This document shows positions 86 through 6,726 of a stretch of 64,000 nt of DNA, one piece after another. How positions within the stretch are numbered: the first letter of the stretch is position 1; the number at the start of each line of letters is the position of its first letter. The notes beneath the pieces were generated by a model, which saw nothing but the letters and a program-made list of their open reading frames with translations, was not told where the DNA came from and did not search any database. The position numbers and the translations under genes are program-made. The stretch is from a virus: positions 1-64,000 of the IMG/VR virus record IMGVR_UViG_3300010391_000058. One strand, given 5' to 3'.

Positions 86-280
86 ATGTCTGATACTACT
101 ACAAAAGTAAAACTTCCAACTCCGGAAGAGATTACTAAAACGCTGCAACATCATTTAGATAAACTTGTTCCGATTATAAGTGCCGTTGAAGTTGAGTTGG
201 CTACAAAAAGAGATATCCCCGTAGAGCATATTGTTCAATTATACAAACAGCAAAGGGATATGGAAGGAGCAATTCGGTAA
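86..280 (+). pseudogene. 5' part of small head-module gene split by the IS1595 element
   Basis: The ATG at 86 (MSDTTTKVKLP...) is preferred to an earlier in-frame ATG at 11 because the upstream gene stops at 84. The frame reads 63 phage codons up to ...RDMEGAI and then enters the transposon end at 276, where it stops after one foreign codon. Removing the element and one target copy lets the frame run on from 4250 (QWLINLEKRF...) to a stop at 4321-4323. That gives an intact 87-residue protein. The product is small, helical and has no known domain; its role in the head module is unknown. It is inactivated here unless the truncated 64-residue form works. Confidence 0.8.
268..275. repeat. Target-site duplication, left copy
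   Basis: The octamer AGCAATTC lies directly outside the left transposon end and is repeated exactly at 4242-4249 outside the right end. Eight-base target duplications are typical of IS1595-family insertion. Confidence 0.9.
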
Positions 281-301
281 CTATATACCTGTTAGACCAT
301 G
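276..301 (+). repeat. Left terminal inverted repeat of the IS1595 element
   Basis: Begins GGTAACTATATACC and ends GACCATG. It is identical over 26 bases to the reverse complement of 4216-4241; the two ends diverge immediately afterwards. The first five bases lie in the truncated host gene and supply its stop codon at 278-280. Confidence 0.93.
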
Positions 302-330
302 CTTATAAAAGATTTCTTTTAACATAGCAA

Positions 331-552
331 TCAGTCTTCAAAACCCTCTTGGATGAAATCTTCTTCGTTTTGCGCAAAAGTGTCTGATGCGTCTTTCGCA
401 TCATAAGCAGCGTCTTCTATCATTTCTCTATTTGCGTTATCAATATCTTCTTCCATTCCCTTTTGGTCATGCGCTTCATAATCATCGTTAGAAATTACCG
501 GCTTTTTGAATTTTGGTGGTTCCATATTGGTATTATTTAAAGAATATGACAA
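331..552 (-). CDS. Small acidic transposon passenger protein
   Basis: Encodes 73 residues from the ATG at 552, or 64 from an internal ATG at 525. The product is strongly acidic, with Asp/Glu clusters through the second half (MEEDIDNANREMIEDAA), and has no membrane segment, cysteine pair or known domain. The start lies four bases after the stop of the minus-strand gene at 557-859, so the two probably form one transcript that runs towards the left transposon end. Function unknown. Confidence 0.6.
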   Translation of the reverse strand: MSYSLNNTNMEPPKFKKPVISNDDYEAHDQKGMEEDIDNANREMIEDAAYDAKDASDTFAQNEEDFIQEGFED

Positions 553-556
553 ACAA

Positions 557-859
557 TCATGGGGAGCTTATTTTTTCAATTTCGATCTTTACAAGATTAA
601 CGAAACCATCTAATGGTGTATTTGCATGAGTAGTAAATTCATGTTTTTCACTACTATTCACTTCCTCGTCTGTTAGTTTTTTCACTGTTGCCAATTTATC
701 AAAACCACGGTCAAAAATCCGCAATAGGTATGTTTCTCCGTCTTTTCCAATTATTTCATCCGTATATAAACTTTTCATTTCCCCTTTAACAGAAGCCTTC
801 ATTATACTGTGAAAGATATTTGATGCTTCTTTAGCTGATTTTTTCTTTGCCTTTGCCAT
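557..859 (-). CDS. Hypothetical transposon passenger protein
   Basis: A 100-residue protein with a lysine-rich start (MAKAKKKSAKEA) followed by a soluble mixed alpha/beta sequence. No domain was recognised. It is the first gene of a two-gene minus-strand unit in the left arm of the element. A TAAATTTG box lies only five bases upstream of the ATG, so the mRNA may have almost no leader. Function unknown. Confidence 0.6.
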   Translation of the reverse strand: MAKAKKKSAKEASNIFHSIMKASVKGEMKSLYTDEIIGKDGETYLLRIFDRGFDKLATVKKLTDEEVNSSEKHEFTTHANTPLDGFVNLVKIEIEKISSP

Positions 860-863
860 GCCA

Positions 864-892
864 CAAATTTACTACTTTTATCTAATGGGAAA
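864..892 (-). promoter_or_regulatory. Candidate promoter for the two left-arm passenger genes
   Basis: On the minus strand, TAAATTTG (871-864) matches the Bacteroidetes -7 box TAnnTTTG, and TTTC (892-889) lies 17 bases upstream, shorter than the usual 19-21. The start codon at 859 follows almost at once. The rest of the 860-1009 gap shows nothing further that I can support. Confidence 0.4.
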
Positions 893-1009
893 CCCCCGCA
901 AGGAAAGCCTCTAATGAGAAGGCAACCAATACGGGGTTCACGGCACATATATTGATGCCGTTATTTCCTGTCGCTCGACACGACTTATTTTTAAAGGGCA
1001 TCAAGCCCT

Positions 1010-1939
1010 TTAATTATTTTCGGATTCTTCTTCCTCTATGAACTTTAAAGCTAATTGAGTACCTATTTTGGGGTATGCCCTTTCTATTCCTCTTTTGAAG
1101 ACCTCCCATTGAGTATTGGCTCGCATTAATGCTAATACACCACTAAAATGCTTGTCCAATGCGGGATGTCCTGTTTCTTGAGTAAGCCATTGATGATGCT
1201 TTGCCTGCCTTCTTCCGATTTCTTCAATAACTGGATTCCTTTTTCTTAGCTCTTCCAGTATGCCGGGAGCTAATCTGTCATAAATAAAATCGTTTGTATA
1301 TCTCCCAACAACACCGGGCATTTTCATGGTTGTTTTGTCTAACGGCCACCCTTTTAGTCTGAATAACTCTTCATAAAATTCCATTGGGAAACATCTCGCC
1401 CACGCTGCATATTCTTTCCGAAGATATTTATCTAATATTTTTTGAAGAGCATCTCTTTGCCTTGTCTCTTGGAAACCCGTTGCTTCATCAACTAAGGCAA
1501 TAATTCCAATAGTGGCAAACCCTCTAATTAAGGAGTGTGATCTTTCCGCATATGTCGTTTGTCTCGGTGTTAAGACACCTTTTTTTTCTGCATCAATATA
1601 TACATAGCACACCAAAGGCAATATATCTGCCTTATATCCGTAGGCTTTTTGGCCGCCCACCATTTCAAATTCAATATGTTTGGAAGACTCTATTAATTCG
1701 CTGGAAATAAATTCTTTAAGATTATTTGCTCTTAAAAAGAGTGGCGCTGTGAAGACTGCTGTTTCATCAACAGAAGACTGATCTTCTTTATATTTTGGCT
1801 TACCAGTCCTCCCCAATGCTCTTAAAAACCCTTCACGGCTCAAAACTCTTTCACCTGTGTCCAGGTTGTAGCAGCGGATTTTAAATCCAGCAATATCAAC
1901 AACCCCCTGATGGGTTGCTAAGGGTGTTTTCTTACTCAT
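1010..1939 (-). CDS. P63C-domain protein carried by the transposon
   Basis: A 309-residue soluble protein. The C-terminal half carries the P63C signature: DEATGFQETRQRDALQKIL, then FPMEFYEELFRLKGW (about residues 187-201). P63C domains occur in phage and mobile-element proteins, and their function is not established. The start codon overlaps by eight bases the end of the zinc-ribbon gene upstream, so the two are translationally coupled. Presence inside the transposon ends makes it cargo or an accessory transposition or regulatory factor, not a phage gene. It could act on DNA, but no catalytic motif is visible. Confidence 0.8.
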   Translation of the reverse strand: MSKKTPLATHQGVVDIAGFKIRCYNLDTGERVLSREGFLRALGRTGKPKYKEDQSSVDETAVFTAPLFLRANNLKEFISSELIESSKHIEFEMVGGQKAYGYKADILPLVCYVYIDAEKKGVLTPRQTTYAERSHSLIRGFATIGIIALVDEATGFQETRQRDALQKILDKYLRKEYAAWARCFPMEFYEELFRLKGWPLDKTTMKMPGVVGRYTNDFIYDRLAPGILEELRKRNPVIEEIGRRQAKHHQWLTQETGHPALDKHFSGVLALMRANTQWEVFKRGIERAYPKIGTQLALKFIEEEESENN

Positions 1940-2333
1940 TTGATAATTTGTTTTGAATTGCTAATATGAGTTCTTGGTTATCCAAATAACCAGTTTTTAT
2001 TCTCTTAATCATTTTTAAAACCGTGTCTTTCGTAACTCCTAATTCACCTGCCAATGTGCGTAAACTTGCTTCCGTTATCCCTGCTATGGCCAGACAATAA
2101 AACCATTTCCTCAAATCAACCTTACTCCTGTGAAATAGTGTTCTTGCCGTTATACTAAAATTTGTATTGCATTTATTACAACGGTAGCGGCGTCCCTTTT
2201 CAATAGGGGAAGAAAAACTGGTTTTACAATACGGGCAGATTGGGGTATTATTCCACAATATTTTTTCAAGGAATTTTATGGCATCCTCTTCCTTTGGGAA
2301 CTGCTTATATACCTGTTTTAATGTAACTGTCAT
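1932..2333 (-). CDS. Stand-alone IS1595-type zinc-ribbon/HTH protein
   Basis: A 133-residue protein starting at the ATG at 2333 (MTVTLKQVYKQF); an earlier in-frame ATG at 2378 would overlap the divergent promoter. It has the zinc ribbon of IS1595 transposases, C33-x2-C36 and C52-x2-C55, followed by an HTH-like segment (ASLRTLAGELGVTKDTVLKM). It ends there, with no DDE catalytic domain. It resembles the N-terminal half of the divergently encoded transposase (shared layout WNxTPxCPxC...KW). A DNA-binding regulator or transposition co-factor is the likely role. It overlaps the P63C gene by eight bases. Confidence 0.75.
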   Translation of the reverse strand: MTVTLKQVYKQFPKEEDAIKFLEKILWNNTPICPYCKTSFSSPIEKGRRYRCNKCNTNFSITARTLFHRSKVDLRKWFYCLAIAGITEASLRTLAGELGVTKDTVLKMIKRIKTGYLDNQELILAIQNKLSNE

Positions 2334-2347
2334 AGTTAAAGATAGGG

Positions 2348-2379
2348 CAAAGATTAAAAATAAATTTGGACAAACCAAA
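2348..2379 (-). promoter_or_regulatory. Candidate promoter for the zinc-ribbon/P63C operon
   Basis: On the minus strand, TTTG (2379-2376), a 20-base spacer and AATCTTTG (2355-2348) give a near match to TTTG-N20-TAnnTTTG. The operon start codon is at 2333. It interleaves with the opposite-strand transposase promoter. Confidence 0.5.
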
Positions 2380-2396
2380 TAAACATTCTACCTTTA
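2365..2396 (+). promoter_or_regulatory. Candidate promoter for the transposase
   Basis: TTTG (2365-2368), a 20-base spacer and TACCTTTA (2389-2396) match the Bacteroidetes promoter form. The transposase ATG is at 2417, giving a leader of roughly 15 bases. The element overlaps the divergent promoter, so a protein binding here would control both. Confidence 0.55.
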
Positions 2397-2416
2397 TCTA
2401 TGACAAACAGAAAACG

Positions 2417-3346
2417 ATGAAAACATTCAAAAGCATATTAGAGTTTCAGAAAGAGTTTAGCACAGAAGAAAAGTGCAGGCAGTATTTAGAGCAACAACGT
2501 TGGAATGGGACACCCGCTTGCCCGTTTTGTGGTTCTATAAATGTTTGCCGTTTCAGTAATGGCAAAATATTCAAGTGCCGGGAAAAGCAATGCAAAAATA
2601 AGTTCAGTGTAACGGTTGGCTCTATTTATGAGAACACTAAAATCCCTTTAGCTAAGTGGTTTTTAGCTACATACATTTTATCTGTGCATAGTAAAGGTAT
2701 CAGCAGTTTGCAGCTTGCTAACTGGCTTGGAGTGACCCAAAAGACAGCATGGCACTTAAACCACCGTATAAGGAAAATGCTCACAGATAACGCCCCTGAA
2801 TTACTGGAAGGCATCGTTGAGGTTGACGAAACTTATGTAGGCGGCAGCTTAAAGAATATACACGCAAGCAAAAAAGAAGGCAAAAAAGGATTAGATAATA
2901 AAACTATGGTATTTGGTGCATTACAACGTCAGGGCAAAGTAAGAGTAAGGGTTATACCTCAAACCAATTTAGAAAATGTTAGTGCAGCGATTGAAGATTT
3001 TGTAGCACTTGACAGCACTATGGTAACAGACGAACATCATGCTTATAACAGGGTGGGTTTAAAATACGATCACAGAAAAGTAAACCACAGAGATAAGGAA
3101 TATGTTCGTAAAGAAGATATACTGGTACATACTAATAATATTGAAGGCTACTGGAATATCCTTAAAAAACAAATTGATGGCATCCATCATTCAGTTAGCC
3201 CAAAACATTTACAACGCTATTGTAATGAATCAGCATTCAGATATAATAGCAGGGCTTTGTTGCAGGATGAGCGTTTTGCTGCTGCGCTGGCTAATTGTAA
3301 CGGTTCATTAAAATATAAAGTATTAACCTCAAACGAAACCGAATGA
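2417..3346 (+). CDS. IS1595-family DDE transposase
   Basis: A 309-residue transposase starting at ATG 2417. The N-terminal zinc ribbon has C35-x2-C38 and C54-x4-C59. An HTH segment follows (GISSLQLANWLGVTQKTAW). The ISXO2-like catalytic domain shows D137 (EVDETYVGG), D205 (MVTDEHHAY) and E243 in TNNIEGYW. All expected catalytic positions are present, so it is probably active. It is the source of the flanking 8-bp duplication. Its end overlaps the start of the XRE gene by four bases (ATGA), so the two are likely co-translated. Confidence 0.92.
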   Translation: MKTFKSILEFQKEFSTEEKCRQYLEQQRWNGTPACPFCGSINVCRFSNGKIFKCREKQCKNKFSVTVGSIYENTKIPLAKWFLATYILSVHSKGISSLQLANWLGVTQKTAWHLNHRIRKMLTDNAPELLEGIVEVDETYVGGSLKNIHASKKEGKKGLDNKTMVFGALQRQGKVRVRVIPQTNLENVSAAIEDFVALDSTMVTDEHHAYNRVGLKYDHRKVNHRDKEYVRKEDILVHTNNIEGYWNILKKQIDGIHHSVSPKHLQRYCNESAFRYNSRALLQDERFAAALANCNGSLKYKVLTSNETE

Positions 3347-3552
3347 AAGACGGAATTTATTTAAAAGAGATGGGTAAAAAAATAAAGGCAGCAAGAGAAG
3401 CAAAAGGACTTTACTTGCGGGACTTGGGCAAGCTGTGTAATATTCATTACGGGGCAATTTGTGAAATAGAAGGCGGCAAAAGAAACAGCCATATCCTTAC
3501 TTTGAAAAATATTGCGGATAAATTAGGTGTAGACGTGAAAGACTTTATTTAA
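3343..3552 (+). CDS. XRE-family HTH regulator of the transposon
   Basis: A 69-residue protein that is nearly all one lambda-repressor-like HTH domain. Features are LGKLCNIHYGAICEIEGGKR as the helix-turn-helix with the conserved E-x-G-x-R region, and a C-terminal LADKLGVDVKDF-like end. It is coupled to the transposase by a four-base overlap, so it probably regulates expression of the element. A target operator cannot be identified with certainty; the divergent promoter region at 2340-2400 is the obvious candidate. Confidence 0.85.
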   Translation: MKDGIYLKEMGKKIKAAREAKGLYLRDLGKLCNIHYGAICEIEGGKRNSHILTLKNIADKLGVDVKDFI

Positions 3553-3581
3553 AGTTTGTATCTTGTATAAAACCACCTTTT

Positions 3582-4079
3582 ATGCAAGCGTTCCAATCTT
3601 GGGCAGATATTGTAATAATGCTCGTATTAGCAATTGCCTATATAATCACGTTTATAGTTCAAAAAAATCAAATAAAAGCTTTAAAGGAAACATCTAAAGC
3701 TCATGCAGAGCTAACACAATCTCAATCGGTTCACATTGGTACTTATAAAAACCTATTTAAGCCAGAAGAGTTGGAAAGCTTCATTAAAATGAAAGTAGAG
3801 CTAAAGCTTGAAGATTCCAGTAAAATAATAAAAGAAAAAGAGAAAAAGGTACAGGAATCGGAGGAAGAAATTCAAGCTTGGGTAGTATTATATACTGACA
3901 CAGTGTGGGCATTATATGGGGTGTTAAGGAGCTTAGATGGGATGGCCAAGAATGAAACTCGTCTTGAATTTGTTACCCAGTTTTGTCAAAAAAGTAATCT
4001 TACTACGTTAGAGGTATTTAAGTTTTTGGACAAAAAATTTGAAAATGTGTTACCTGAAATAAAAAAAAGCCAGAGTTAA
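3582..4079 (+). CDS. Membrane-anchored coiled-coil passenger protein
   Basis: A 165-residue protein with one N-terminal membrane segment (about residues 8-25, IVIMLVLAIAYIITFIV), then a charged helical stretch with likely coiled coil (SKIIKEKEKKVQESEEEIQ), then a helical C-terminus. No enzyme motif is seen. It lies 29 bp downstream of the XRE gene on the same strand. Function unknown. Its last 62 bases overlap the minus-strand ORF at 4018-4218. Confidence 0.65.
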   Translation: MQAFQSWADIVIMLVLAIAYIITFIVQKNQIKALKETSKAHAELTQSQSVHIGTYKNLFKPEELESFIKMKVELKLEDSSKIIKEKEKKVQESEEEIQAWVVLYTDTVWALYGVLRSLDGMAKNETRLEFVTQFCQKSNLTTLEVFKFLDKKFENVLPEIKKSQS

Positions 4080-4218
4080 TACACCATTTTTTTAGCTCAT
4101 CATACTCTTCTATTGTCAAAAAAGAACAACCTCTTAAACAACCATATTTAGCATCAAATAAGTCATTTAATATTTTAATAAAAGCGGGTATATCTATTTG
4201 ATTATTTTGGGGGTTCAT
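4018..4218 (-). CDS. Small ORF starting inside the right inverted repeat
   Basis: Encodes 66 residues (MNPQNNQIDIPAFIKILNDL...). The ATG is formed by the last three bases of the right inverted repeat. The composition looks protein-like and includes three cysteines before the C-terminal stretch, but the end overlaps the convergent membrane-protein gene by 62 bases. No domain was recognised. It could be a real small gene or a chance frame. Confidence 0.35.
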   Translation of the reverse strand: MNPQNNQIDIPAFIKILNDLFDAKYGCLRGCSFLTIEEYDELKKWCINSGFFLFQVTHFQIFCPKT

Positions 4219-4241
4219 GGTCTAACAGGTATATAGTTACC
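4216..4241 (-). repeat. Right terminal inverted repeat of the IS1595 element
   Basis: Perfect 26-bp inverted copy of 276-301. Read inward from the element end, its last three bases form the ATG of the small minus-strand ORF 4018-4218. Confidence 0.93.
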
Positions 4242-4249
4242 AGCAATTC
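4242..4249. repeat. Target-site duplication, right copy
   Basis: Exact second copy of AGCAATTC, directly outside the right transposon end at 4241. Fusing 275 to 4250 restores an open reading frame, which confirms the element boundaries. Confidence 0.9.
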
Positions 4250-4323
4250 AATGGTTAATTAATCTTGAAAAAAGATTTAATCCTTCAAAGATCATTGCAT
4301 TTGGTAAGCCAGGACAGGCTTAA
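4250..4323 (+). pseudogene. 3' part of the gene split by the IS1595 element
   Basis: This is the displaced 3' end of the gene starting at 86. Joined after base 275 it continues in frame with 24 residues (QWLINLEKRFNPSKI... ending KPGQA) and the stop codon TAA at 4321-4323. It has no start codon of its own and is separated from the 5' part by 3,966 bp of transposon plus one target copy. The head protease gene begins 72 bp downstream, so the insertion may also affect its expression. Confidence 0.8.
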
Positions 4324-4395
4324 TAAAATTCCACTCGTATAAAAAAAGTGTGCCACTTTACGCACAATTGATTTGCCGCAAATTACATTTACGGT

Positions 4396-5655
4396 ATGAT
4401 CTATACCGTTGATGAGAGTGCAGAGGTGCCGATCATGCTCATTGATAAGCATATTGGATACAACGATGAGGACGGTCAGGGTATAGATGGAGCTCTTTTC
4501 CAGAGGGAATTATTGCGGCTTGATAGCATGGGTAAAAAATCCATAGATGTATGGATAAATTCGCCGGGAGGTAATGTTTTTGAAGGGTTCATGATTTTTA
4601 ATGCGATCCTTAATACGAATACTCCGGTTGATACATACAATATCGGGATGGCAGCAAGCATGGCAGGTGTAATCTTCATGGCCGGGAGAAAAAGAAGGAT
4701 GGCCGATTACGCAATGTTCATGACCCACATGCCAGGCAGTAGCCCAGACGATAAGATGCTAAGCGCAATGGCCGATTCCATGGTGATCATGACTTCTGCA
4801 AAAAGCAGCATTGGTGAAGAGGAAATGCGGAAGATGATGAAAAAGGAAACATGGTTGAACGCCCAAGAATGTTTTGCCATGGGGCTTTGTACAGAAGAGC
4901 CGGTTAAAAGCAGTCTTGCTAATAAGAAATGGATGCCGGCAGCAAGTGATAGCCGGGTAATCTGGATAGAAGCAAAGAAAGTCGCAGCAAATGTTTTGAA
5001 TAATAATACTTCTCAATCACAAAATTCTACTAATATGAGTATGACAAAAGTAACCATGAAGTTGGGCCTTGTTGAGGCAGCAACCGAAGATAATATCGTT
5101 GAAGCCATTAAGGTGATAGAAGCGAAAGCTTACACCGCTGAAACGAAAATTATTCAGCTTGAAACTCAGCATGCCACGAAGCTGACTGAAGTTACTAACC
5201 AGGCTACTGCTGAAGTAACAGCGGCCAATGCTAAGGTGACTGATATCACCGCAAAGCTCACTGCTTCTGAAGCAAGGGCTACCACAGCGGAAACAGCCCT
5301 GACAGCAAAAACAGCTGAGTACGATGCAATTAAAGCAAAGTATGATGCAATGGAATTGGAAAAAACCAATGCCGTTGAAGAGGCTAAGAAAGTTGCTGCA
5401 AAATCCATGGTTGACACTCATGTAAGGACAGGCCGGATCAAGAATGAAGCTGCTGTTATCGAAAAGTGGGTTGCCCTTGCAACCGCCGATCTGGATGGAA
5501 CAAAATCAATGATCGAAGCAATTCCGCTGAGTGTAAATGCTCCGGTATTCCAGACAGATATTCCGGCAGCAAATAACCAGGCTGGCTTATCAACAACGGC
5601 AATGCATCTTGCAGTTAAGAACAAAATGAAGAGAGAAGGAAAAGTAGTTGTTTAA
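4396..5655 (+). CDS. ClpP-type head maturation protease with C-terminal scaffold-like domain
   Basis: A 419-residue protein. Residues about 1-175 form a ClpP/SppA-type serine protease: WINSPGGNVFEG (54-64), nucleophile S88 in GMAASMAG and H111 in MFMTHMPG. These proteases cut scaffold and capsid proteins during head maturation. After a short linker the rest (about 215-345) is an Ala/Thr/Glu-rich coiled coil with repeated TAE/AKT units, then a helical C-terminus. This is what an internal scaffold looks like, so protease and scaffold seem to be one polypeptide. The capsid gene follows directly. The interrupted gene and transposon lie upstream. Confidence 0.85.
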   Translation: MIYTVDESAEVPIMLIDKHIGYNDEDGQGIDGALFQRELLRLDSMGKKSIDVWINSPGGNVFEGFMIFNAILNTNTPVDTYNIGMAASMAGVIFMAGRKRRMADYAMFMTHMPGSSPDDKMLSAMADSMVIMTSAKSSIGEEEMRKMMKKETWLNAQECFAMGLCTEEPVKSSLANKKWMPAASDSRVIWIEAKKVAANVLNNNTSQSQNSTNMSMTKVTMKLGLVEAATEDNIVEAIKVIEAKAYTAETKIIQLETQHATKLTEVTNQATAEVTAANAKVTDITAKLTASEARATTAETALTAKTAEYDAIKAKYDAMELEKTNAVEEAKKVAAKSMVDTHVRTGRIKNEAAVIEKWVALATADLDGTKSMIEAIPLSVNAPVFQTDIPAANNQAGLSTTAMHLAVKNKMKREGKVVV

Positions 5656-5715
5656 CAAAAAACTTTTTATCCTAAAGGATCAATAATAAAATTTAAAAAC
5701 TAAAAACCCCTTACC

Positions 5716-6726
5716 ATGGCCCTCGTAATATCAGATACCGCTTATGCCGGAACGTTTGCAAGTTATTTCTGGCTGCCCGCCACATTTGGAATGGATACCC
5801 TGCAGAAGGGAGTTGCTTATGTACAGGACGGGATCAAGAAAACACACACCATTGGCCGTGTTGATTTTGCAAACCCACTACAGGCCAGGGTAGCAACGCC
5901 AAGCTCCAGCGGAACATTTACCGTGGATGGCAGATCGCTGTCACCAACTGATATGATGGTTTACACGGAATTCAACCCCCGTGATTTTGAACAACATTGG
6001 CTTGCTGAGCAGCTGAGCCCTACGCTTTTGGCAAGGGAATTACCAGTAACTGCAGAGACCTACATGATGCAGATGGCATTAAACCGTACATTTGAGCAGA
6101 TCGAACTTGGTGTATGGATGGGATCTACCACATATACCGCCGTTGCCGGCGATCCTGGTAATGGACAGTTGAAGTTCTTCGATGGCTTCCTGAAAAAAAT
6201 GGTTGCTGATGCCGCTGTATTGAAAGTAGCAAGCCCGCTGCCTTTGAGCGCCGCTGCCTCCAGTGGATCAGTTTATAATATCGTTGATGCCTTCAATGCA
6301 TTGCTGGCCCTGGCAGCTGCAAATAAGAAAGCATTGCTGAGCAAACCAAGCCGTTATCAGAGGTTGAAGTTCCTGGTATCGGTGAACACAGAACAAATTT
6401 ATCACACCTTCCTTACCACTACCTTGACATTCAAGGGTATTAATACCACCGAACAGGGGATTAACAAGTTCAAAGGATATGAAGTAGTTCCTTTGGCCGG
6501 TATCCCTGATGATACGATCGTATTCACGGAGGCCCTTGATGATACCAGCTCCAATTTATATATCGGTATGAACAGTACTGAAGATAATAACCTGCAGCTG
6601 CAAAGGCTTCAGGCAAACAGTGAGCTTTACTTCCTGAAAGGGTTGATGAAGTACGATGTTCAGTACGGGTTCAGTGAGCAGGTGTTTTTATTCACTACCC
6701 TGGTTGCCGGAGACTTCAGTGTATAA
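5716..6726 (+). CDS. Major capsid protein
   Basis: A 336-residue soluble protein directly after the protease-scaffold gene, the standard place for the major capsid protein. It is rich in beta segments with an N-terminal helix-poor arm. It shows regions common in HK97-fold coat proteins, such as a long central helix (ETYMMQMALNRTFEQIELGVWMG) and a C-terminal YFLKGLMKYDVQYGFSEQVF. No cysteines or membrane segments. The assignment rests on order and size more than on a sequence signature. Confidence 0.75.
   Translation: MALVISDTAYAGTFASYFWLPATFGMDTLQKGVAYVQDGIKKTHTIGRVDFANPLQARVATPSSSGTFTVDGRSLSPTDMMVYTEFNPRDFEQHWLAEQLSPTLLARELPVTAETYMMQMALNRTFEQIELGVWMGSTTYTAVAGDPGNGQLKFFDGFLKKMVADAAVLKVASPLPLSAAASSGSVYNIVDAFNALLALAAANKKALLSKPSRYQRLKFLVSVNTEQIYHTFLTTTLTFKGINTTEQGINKFKGYEVVPLAGIPDDTIVFTEALDDTSSNLYIGMNSTEDNNLQLQRLQANSELYFLKGLMKYDVQYGFSEQVFLFTTLVAGDFSV

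Follow-up and report, generated by a model that had tools for sequence, protein, structure and literature searches.

A transposase-derived zinc-ribbon protein coupled to a P63C protein within a phage IS1595-family transposon, and candidate operators resembling transposon ends

A protein that keeps the DNA-binding domain of a transposase is known from IS1, in which InsA, a zinc-finger/helix-turn-helix protein, represses the IS1 promoter and competes with the transposase at both ends of the element (PMC12428005). The locus described here, within a 64,000-nucleotide window (positions 1 to 64,000) of the 83-kb virus record IMGVR_UViG_3300010391_000058, resembles that system in encoding a catalysis-free protein that corresponds to the DNA-binding half of a transposase, with sites that appear to derive from transposon ends in its putative own promoter region (compare PMC12428005). 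Unlike InsA, which comes from the same gene as the IS1 transposase and is the product made without a frameshift, the short protein in the window is encoded by a separate gene, belongs to another subgroup than the resident transposase, and is coupled to a P63C protein. The surrounding element is like IS1595 transposons that carry passenger genes, having a transposase with zinc ribbon and DDE_Tnp_IS1595 domains, inverted ends, and an 8-bp target duplication, which is usual in that family (PMC8101967). P63C is common in phages, plasmids, and prophages, and we found no established function for it. The window P63C belongs over its full length to the phage P63C sequence family (PHROG 2384, Mx8 p63), with a predicted fold like that of Mx8 p63 and, more weakly, perhaps like that of Bro-N and antirepressor proteins; it differs from these proteins in lacking an N-terminal GGxARA motif and in being coupled to a zinc-ribbon/helix-turn-helix (HTH) partner. 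A looser parallel is found in the toxin-antitoxin pairs of Tn3 transposition modules, which are likewise small gene pairs built into the module and recurrent across elements (PMC7157771). The genes in the window are different ones, and the likeness is one of arrangement, not of toxin activity.

In the literature searched, neither a recurrent P63C passenger in several IS1595 subgroups nor a second, truncated transposase inside such an element is described. The open-access literature searched likewise held no report of P63C with IS1595 or with end-derived operators of this kind; a review of the IS1595 family and a paper from 2002 about regulator domains of viruses could contain parts of it. Each component is of a known kind, and the new part is their combination and recurrence.

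Table 1. Features of the transposon and its flanks in the window. L numbers are our handles for compared loci.
Feature	Position	Strand	Basis
Left target-site duplication, AGCAATTC	268-275	none	sequence
Left 26-bp terminal inverted repeat, GGTAACTATATACCTGTTAGACCATG	276-301	+	repeat scan, 100%
Small cargo ORF, 64 aa	331-525	-	no family match
Cargo ORF, 100 aa	557-859	-	no significant family; weak PHROG 3128
P63C protein, 309 aa; N-terminal region Bro-N-like in structure search, C-terminal Pfam P63C domain	1010-1939	-	Pfam and PHROG
Short zinc-ribbon and HTH protein, 133 aa; IS1595 N-terminal half without DDE	1932-2333	-	profile, tree, AlphaFold
Candidate operator B, core TGTCATAGTTAAAGATAG; 16/18 to inner L148 end, covers start codon of short gene	2323-2346	+	site match, matrix
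Candidate operator A, core TGTCATAGATAAAGGTAGA (2387-2405); 19/19 to inner L148 end	2387-2410	-	site match, matrix
IS1595-family transposase, 309 aa; zinc ribbon and DDE_Tnp_IS1595, catalytic residues present	2417-3346	+	domain search
XRE-type HTH protein, 69 aa; 4-nt overlap with transposase stop	3343-3552	+	domain search
Cargo protein, 165 aa; N-terminal hydrophobic stretch	3582-4079	+	no significant family
Right 26-bp terminal inverted repeat, exact reverse complement of GGTAACTATATACCTGTTAGACCATG	4216-4241	-	repeat scan
Right target-site duplication, AGCAATTC	4242-4249	none	sequence

Perfect 26-bp inverted repeats flanked on either side by the same 8 bp identify 276-4241 (3,966 bp) as a transposon (Table 1), and the transposase domains, inverted ends, and 8-bp duplication together place the whole element in the IS1595 family. 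It interrupts a phage gene (11-280 and 4242-4330), whose stop codon is now supplied by the transposon end; with the transposon removed, the frame entering from upstream would read ~25 codons further before a stop, and the next gene encodes a phage head-maturation protease. Within the element, the XRE protein and the 165-aa protein that follow the transposase represent possible added regulation of the transposase operon.

The first-pass annotation described, divergent from the transposase and inside the transposon, a protein with only a zinc ribbon and HTH whose gene overlaps that of P63C by 8 nt, and domain searches and coordinates bear this out. The short protein matches Zn_ribbon_IS1595 (E = 3e-10, residues 14 to 57), with weak HTH matches at residues 90 to 113, and its AlphaFold model has a mean pLDDT of 90. 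Domain search found no DDE domain in it, and the ORF stops before the first catalytic Asp, so that it amounts to a transposase DNA-binding domain alone, in a separate gene on the strand opposite the transposase. The overlap with P63C is ATGAGTAA. Two other origins were rejected: no DDE-coding frame lies between the overlapping genes, which rules out a frameshifted full-length transposase, and the short protein falls in a different clade from the transposase of the window, which rules out derivation from it.

The window P63C protein matches Pfam P63C at E = 4e-31 (108 bits, against a curated cutoff of 26.1) and PHROG 2384 over nearly its full length (E = 6e-100); the PHROG search also gave a partial match to an antirepressor. 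Structure searches with its model (mean pLDDT 83, pTM 0.53) returned Mx8 p63 first, followed by Bro-N, repressor-domain, and antirepressor proteins, the BFVD matches to Bro-N proteins being at E values of about 2e-3 with low TM-scores. Sequence and fold searches of the PDB with P63C gave nothing significant, and none of the PADLOC defense models matched it; the short protein had only a weak PADLOC match (E = 0.002). A GGxARA-like N-terminal motif occurs in 1 of 24 IS1595-linked P63C proteins and in 58 of 108 stand-alone ones, counts that ignore shared ancestry and come from a stringent pattern search, which overlooks variants (L044, counted as negative, has a close variant). It is as if the partner protein replaces the motif in linked P63C.

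With P63C sequence as the only criterion, we gathered P63C genes from plasmids, phages, Pseudomonadota genomes (15 of 398 positive), and viral contigs; single-sequence scans of the viral contigs with either window protein returned no matches, and alignment queries were required. The first viral sample, for which similarity to P63C was the sole basis of selection, holds 73 distinct P63C genes; 8 of them are fused to an IS1595 zinc-ribbon ORF or have one ≤150 bp upstream on the same strand, while the rest of the ~789 kb of flanks holds one other IS1595 ORF. The coupling is thus more than chance. In the Pseudomonadota set 3 of 19 P63C genes are linked in this way, and none are in 13 plasmid and phage records. 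The association is thus real but confined to a minority of P63C genes. The unlinked P63C genes stand alone, mostly beside CI-like repressors where the neighbor could be named, so IS1595 elements are one biological setting for P63C, as had been proposed from the window, and not its sole setting, most P63C genes being stand-alone phage or plasmid genes. Our tally of P63C genes carried by transposons is probably an undercount, since strong end-like sites occur near P63C genes lacking an adjacent IS1595 ORF (L072, L079, L240, L134, and L139).

Altogether, P63C lies directly behind, or is fused to, an IS1595 zinc-ribbon ORF at ~20 unrelated phage and bacterial loci; the suggestion that the pair forms a module is upheld in this wider sense, and an association between P63C and IS1595 elements does recur in other genomes. 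When viral contigs were scanned with the zinc-ribbon half as seed, P63C adjoined it at most of the loci closest to that seed, whereas a more distant clade lacked this neighbor. A partner of ~130 residues, as in the window, is the rare form, with four pairs (the window included) and two fusions among ~190 distinct P63C sequences; two further viral scans yielded no new short pair. Usually the gene directly upstream of P63C encodes a full-length transposase that retains the catalytic domain; it overlaps P63C by 4 or 8 nt or is separated from it by a gap of a few bases, and the two lie inside an element bounded by terminal inverted repeats. At least 17 such elements exceed shuffled controls in the inverted-end scan (L042, L043, L044, L052, L059, L070, L099, L107, L110, L140, L144, L147, L150, L154, L243, L260, and L264; L110, L264, and L059 only narrowly), and 8-base duplications are visible in L070, L110, L150, L243, and L059. 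The smallest, L144 (1,942 bp) and L260 (2,135 bp), consist of transposase and P63C only; others carry extra cargo encoding DUF3800, DUF4760, an XRE protein, or a DNA methyltransferase, and L107 and L072 are shortened, nonautonomous derivatives in which two ends flank P63C. Several IS1595 subgroups thus carry P63C as a recurrent passenger.

P63C can behave as an exchangeable cassette in an otherwise conserved element. L042 and L043 are the same transposon in two genomes, with DNA identity of 78.5% through the transposase and 79% through DUF3800; their transposases are 81.5% and their DUF3800 proteins 90% identical, but their P63C proteins are only 30% identical, and DNA similarity ends ~13 bp into P63C and returns at the start of DUF3800. 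The P63C tree, in which one row (L107) is very long and unreliable, intersperses transposon-linked genes with stand-alone ones, so that the state changes at least 15 times, and it groups the L042 P63C with a stand-alone gene. P63C genes move into and out of IS1595 elements. P63C and a DNA methyltransferase also occur without a transposase beside CGGAATGTCC-type ends in L072 (3970-6099) and L240 (3303-5708), the former bounded on both sides with its left end within the start of P63C.

Catalysis-free partners are separate genes in the window, L129, L131, and L276 and are fused to P63C in L107 and L116. All four separate short proteins end near the same point, roughly where the catalytic domain would begin. 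In the zinc-ribbon tree, these short forms are nested among P63C-linked transposases, within a clade supported at 94, and occupy three positions: the window with L148 (90), L276 with L129 (95), and L131 alone. The simplest reading of this topology is several independent truncations, although long branches leave the exact positions unsure. The window protein has a very long branch (2.57), which fits relaxed or adaptive change and means that its position is not fully secure. L148 is the best match for both window genes, its P63C being 58% identical and its full-length transposase, which adjoins that P63C, 48% identical to the short protein, and the P63C tree joins the window and L148 with support of 100. 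Since one locus with a full-length transposase is best for both genes, the short gene is a transposase minus its DDE domain. The working transposase in the window comes from another subgroup. There the nearest relatives with P63C are L243, L260, and L264, whose ends, like those of the window transposon, open with GGTAA and continue into a similar T/A-rich stretch. The two types of end differ, the left end of L148 being GGTAATGTCATAGATAAAGGTAGA and that of the window transposon beginning GGTAACTATATA. With an L148-type short gene and a transposase of another subgroup, the transposon holds remains of a different P63C transposon. Inverted ends around the short pairs of L129, L131 (a locus cut by the contig end), and L276 and around the L116 fusion did not rise above shuffled background.

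Sequences resembling L148-type ends lie in the 83-bp region between the short gene and the transposase, or at its border. With a matrix built from 13 transposon ends, L148 excluded, the top two sites in the 64 kb are at 2387 (23.9 bits) and 2323 (18.3 bits), followed by one at 8.5 bits; they are the only two such sites in the window, and both lie in the presumed promoter region shared by the short gene and the transposase. They are inverted relative to each other and 64 bp apart, a layout also seen in L144 and L148, and both lack the outer CGGAA-type tip; the core of site A, its tip lost, ends 11 bp before the transposase ATG. A second internal site, 52 to 60 bp inside the left end, is present in 7 of 9 full-length P63C transposons of the clade and in 0 of 3 relatives without P63C. 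Because the window sites seem inherited, their presence alone is no proof of use, and the two could be passive fossils. Other short genes are also preceded by end-like sites, two in L129, one in L131, and three in tandem ~22 bp apart in L276. The L131 site is directly 5′ of TTGACT-17 bp-TATATT, and those of L276 and L129 run into the likely −35 region, these promoters being putative and read by eye.

We consider it reasonably probable that the short protein is an InsA-like autorepressor acting at end-derived operators and that P63C is a co-encoded, exchangeable Bro/antirepressor-like regulator. Homology shows the first steps: an ancestral L148-type IS1595 element carried a transposase-P63C operon behind its left end; in the window lineage, the transposase lost its catalytic domain while its zinc-ribbon/HTH part stayed coupled to P63C; and this remnant and P63C are now cargo of a second IS1595 transposon. 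Beside the remnant, the inner part of the old end, presumably the part that is bound, persists in two copies, and the outer tip, presumably required for transposition, has been lost. By analogy with InsA, the short protein would most likely bind DNA and repress its own operon, and probably the divergent transposase as well, depending on the promoter positions. P63C, co-translated with it, would most likely modulate this repressor or another phage regulator, the step that we hold least firmly.

Three other readings bear on this proposal. The short ORF might be the decaying remains of a dead transposase, kept open by P63C translation or by chance, with only P63C functional. An overlapping stop and start would indeed tie translation of P63C to the upstream frame, the window protein has its long branch, and dead or truncated transposase ORFs without P63C occur in phages, e.g., L153. 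However, the first two codon positions are better conserved than the third (identity of 0.63, 0.68, and 0.40, respectively), the zinc cysteines and HTH are retained, and the ORF remained open in only 6 of 5,000 neutral simulations (~0.1%), a figure silent on how long ago truncation occurred. The common endpoint of short forms at four loci, at about one domain boundary, and the tandem sites of L276 and L129, which look amplified rather than fossil, also speak against decay, and we regard it as unlikely. Much less likely still is that the short protein acts as a dominant-negative inhibitor at the present transposon's own 26-bp ends. The short protein does fold like the DNA-binding half of the transposase, and InsA acts in this way in IS1, but the short protein comes from another IS1595 subgroup with different end sequences, which makes such competition the least likely reading, and matching sites are found in the promoter region and not at the ends. 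Of the earlier suggestion that the short protein binds the transposon ends or competes with the transposase there, binding to end sequence is still plausible; the targets expected from the L148-type origin of the gene are the two promoter-region sites and not the 26-bp ends.

The remaining alternative concerns P63C and is partly compatible with our preferred explanation of the short protein: P63C may be plain cargo of benefit to the host, such as an anti-phage or superinfection-exclusion function, tied to the transposase by cotranscription only. We give this a sizable chance, somewhat short of even. P63C adjoins CI repressors in phages (as in ST104, L019), repressors being its commonest neighbors; on plasmids it lies beside Abi, restriction, and methyltransferase genes; it accompanies DNA methyltransferase cargo in L150, L072, and L240; and its precise swap between the near-identical L042 and L043 is as expected for variable defense cargo. 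Set against this are the nearly fixed transposase-P63C order, the reduction of the smallest elements to these two genes, the fusion of P63C to a zinc-ribbon/HTH domain in L116, and the failure of any PADLOC defense model to match.

Beyond the autorepressor proposal, we can tentatively suggest a broader role, which we think somewhat more apt to be wrong than right. P63C may serve IS1595 transposons as a dedicated accessory regulator, a swappable second subunit that responds to conditions and, by way of end-derived operators, governs the transposase-P63C operon. Phages may several times have domesticated the catalysis-free pair as a switch of the repressor/antirepressor type, its tandem operators having arisen from transposon ends. 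Because P63C is here tied to a defined transposon family and to predicted operators of ~19 bp, its function becomes testable by simple assays. In this set, transposases also appear to have been turned repeatedly into candidate gene switches through loss of the catalytic domain, with transposon ends apparently becoming candidate promoter operators, in phages in which intermediate steps are still visible.

Two further observations concern related loci. A second clade of phage IS1595 zinc-ribbon ORFs (L158 to L187), none of them P63C-linked, includes many that match only the N-terminal half of the profile and may represent other domesticated or C-terminally replaced transposases. In L008, P63C (3885-4823) is divergent from an IS1-like single-gene transposase without a zinc ribbon (4797-5906), the 5′ ends of the two genes overlapping.
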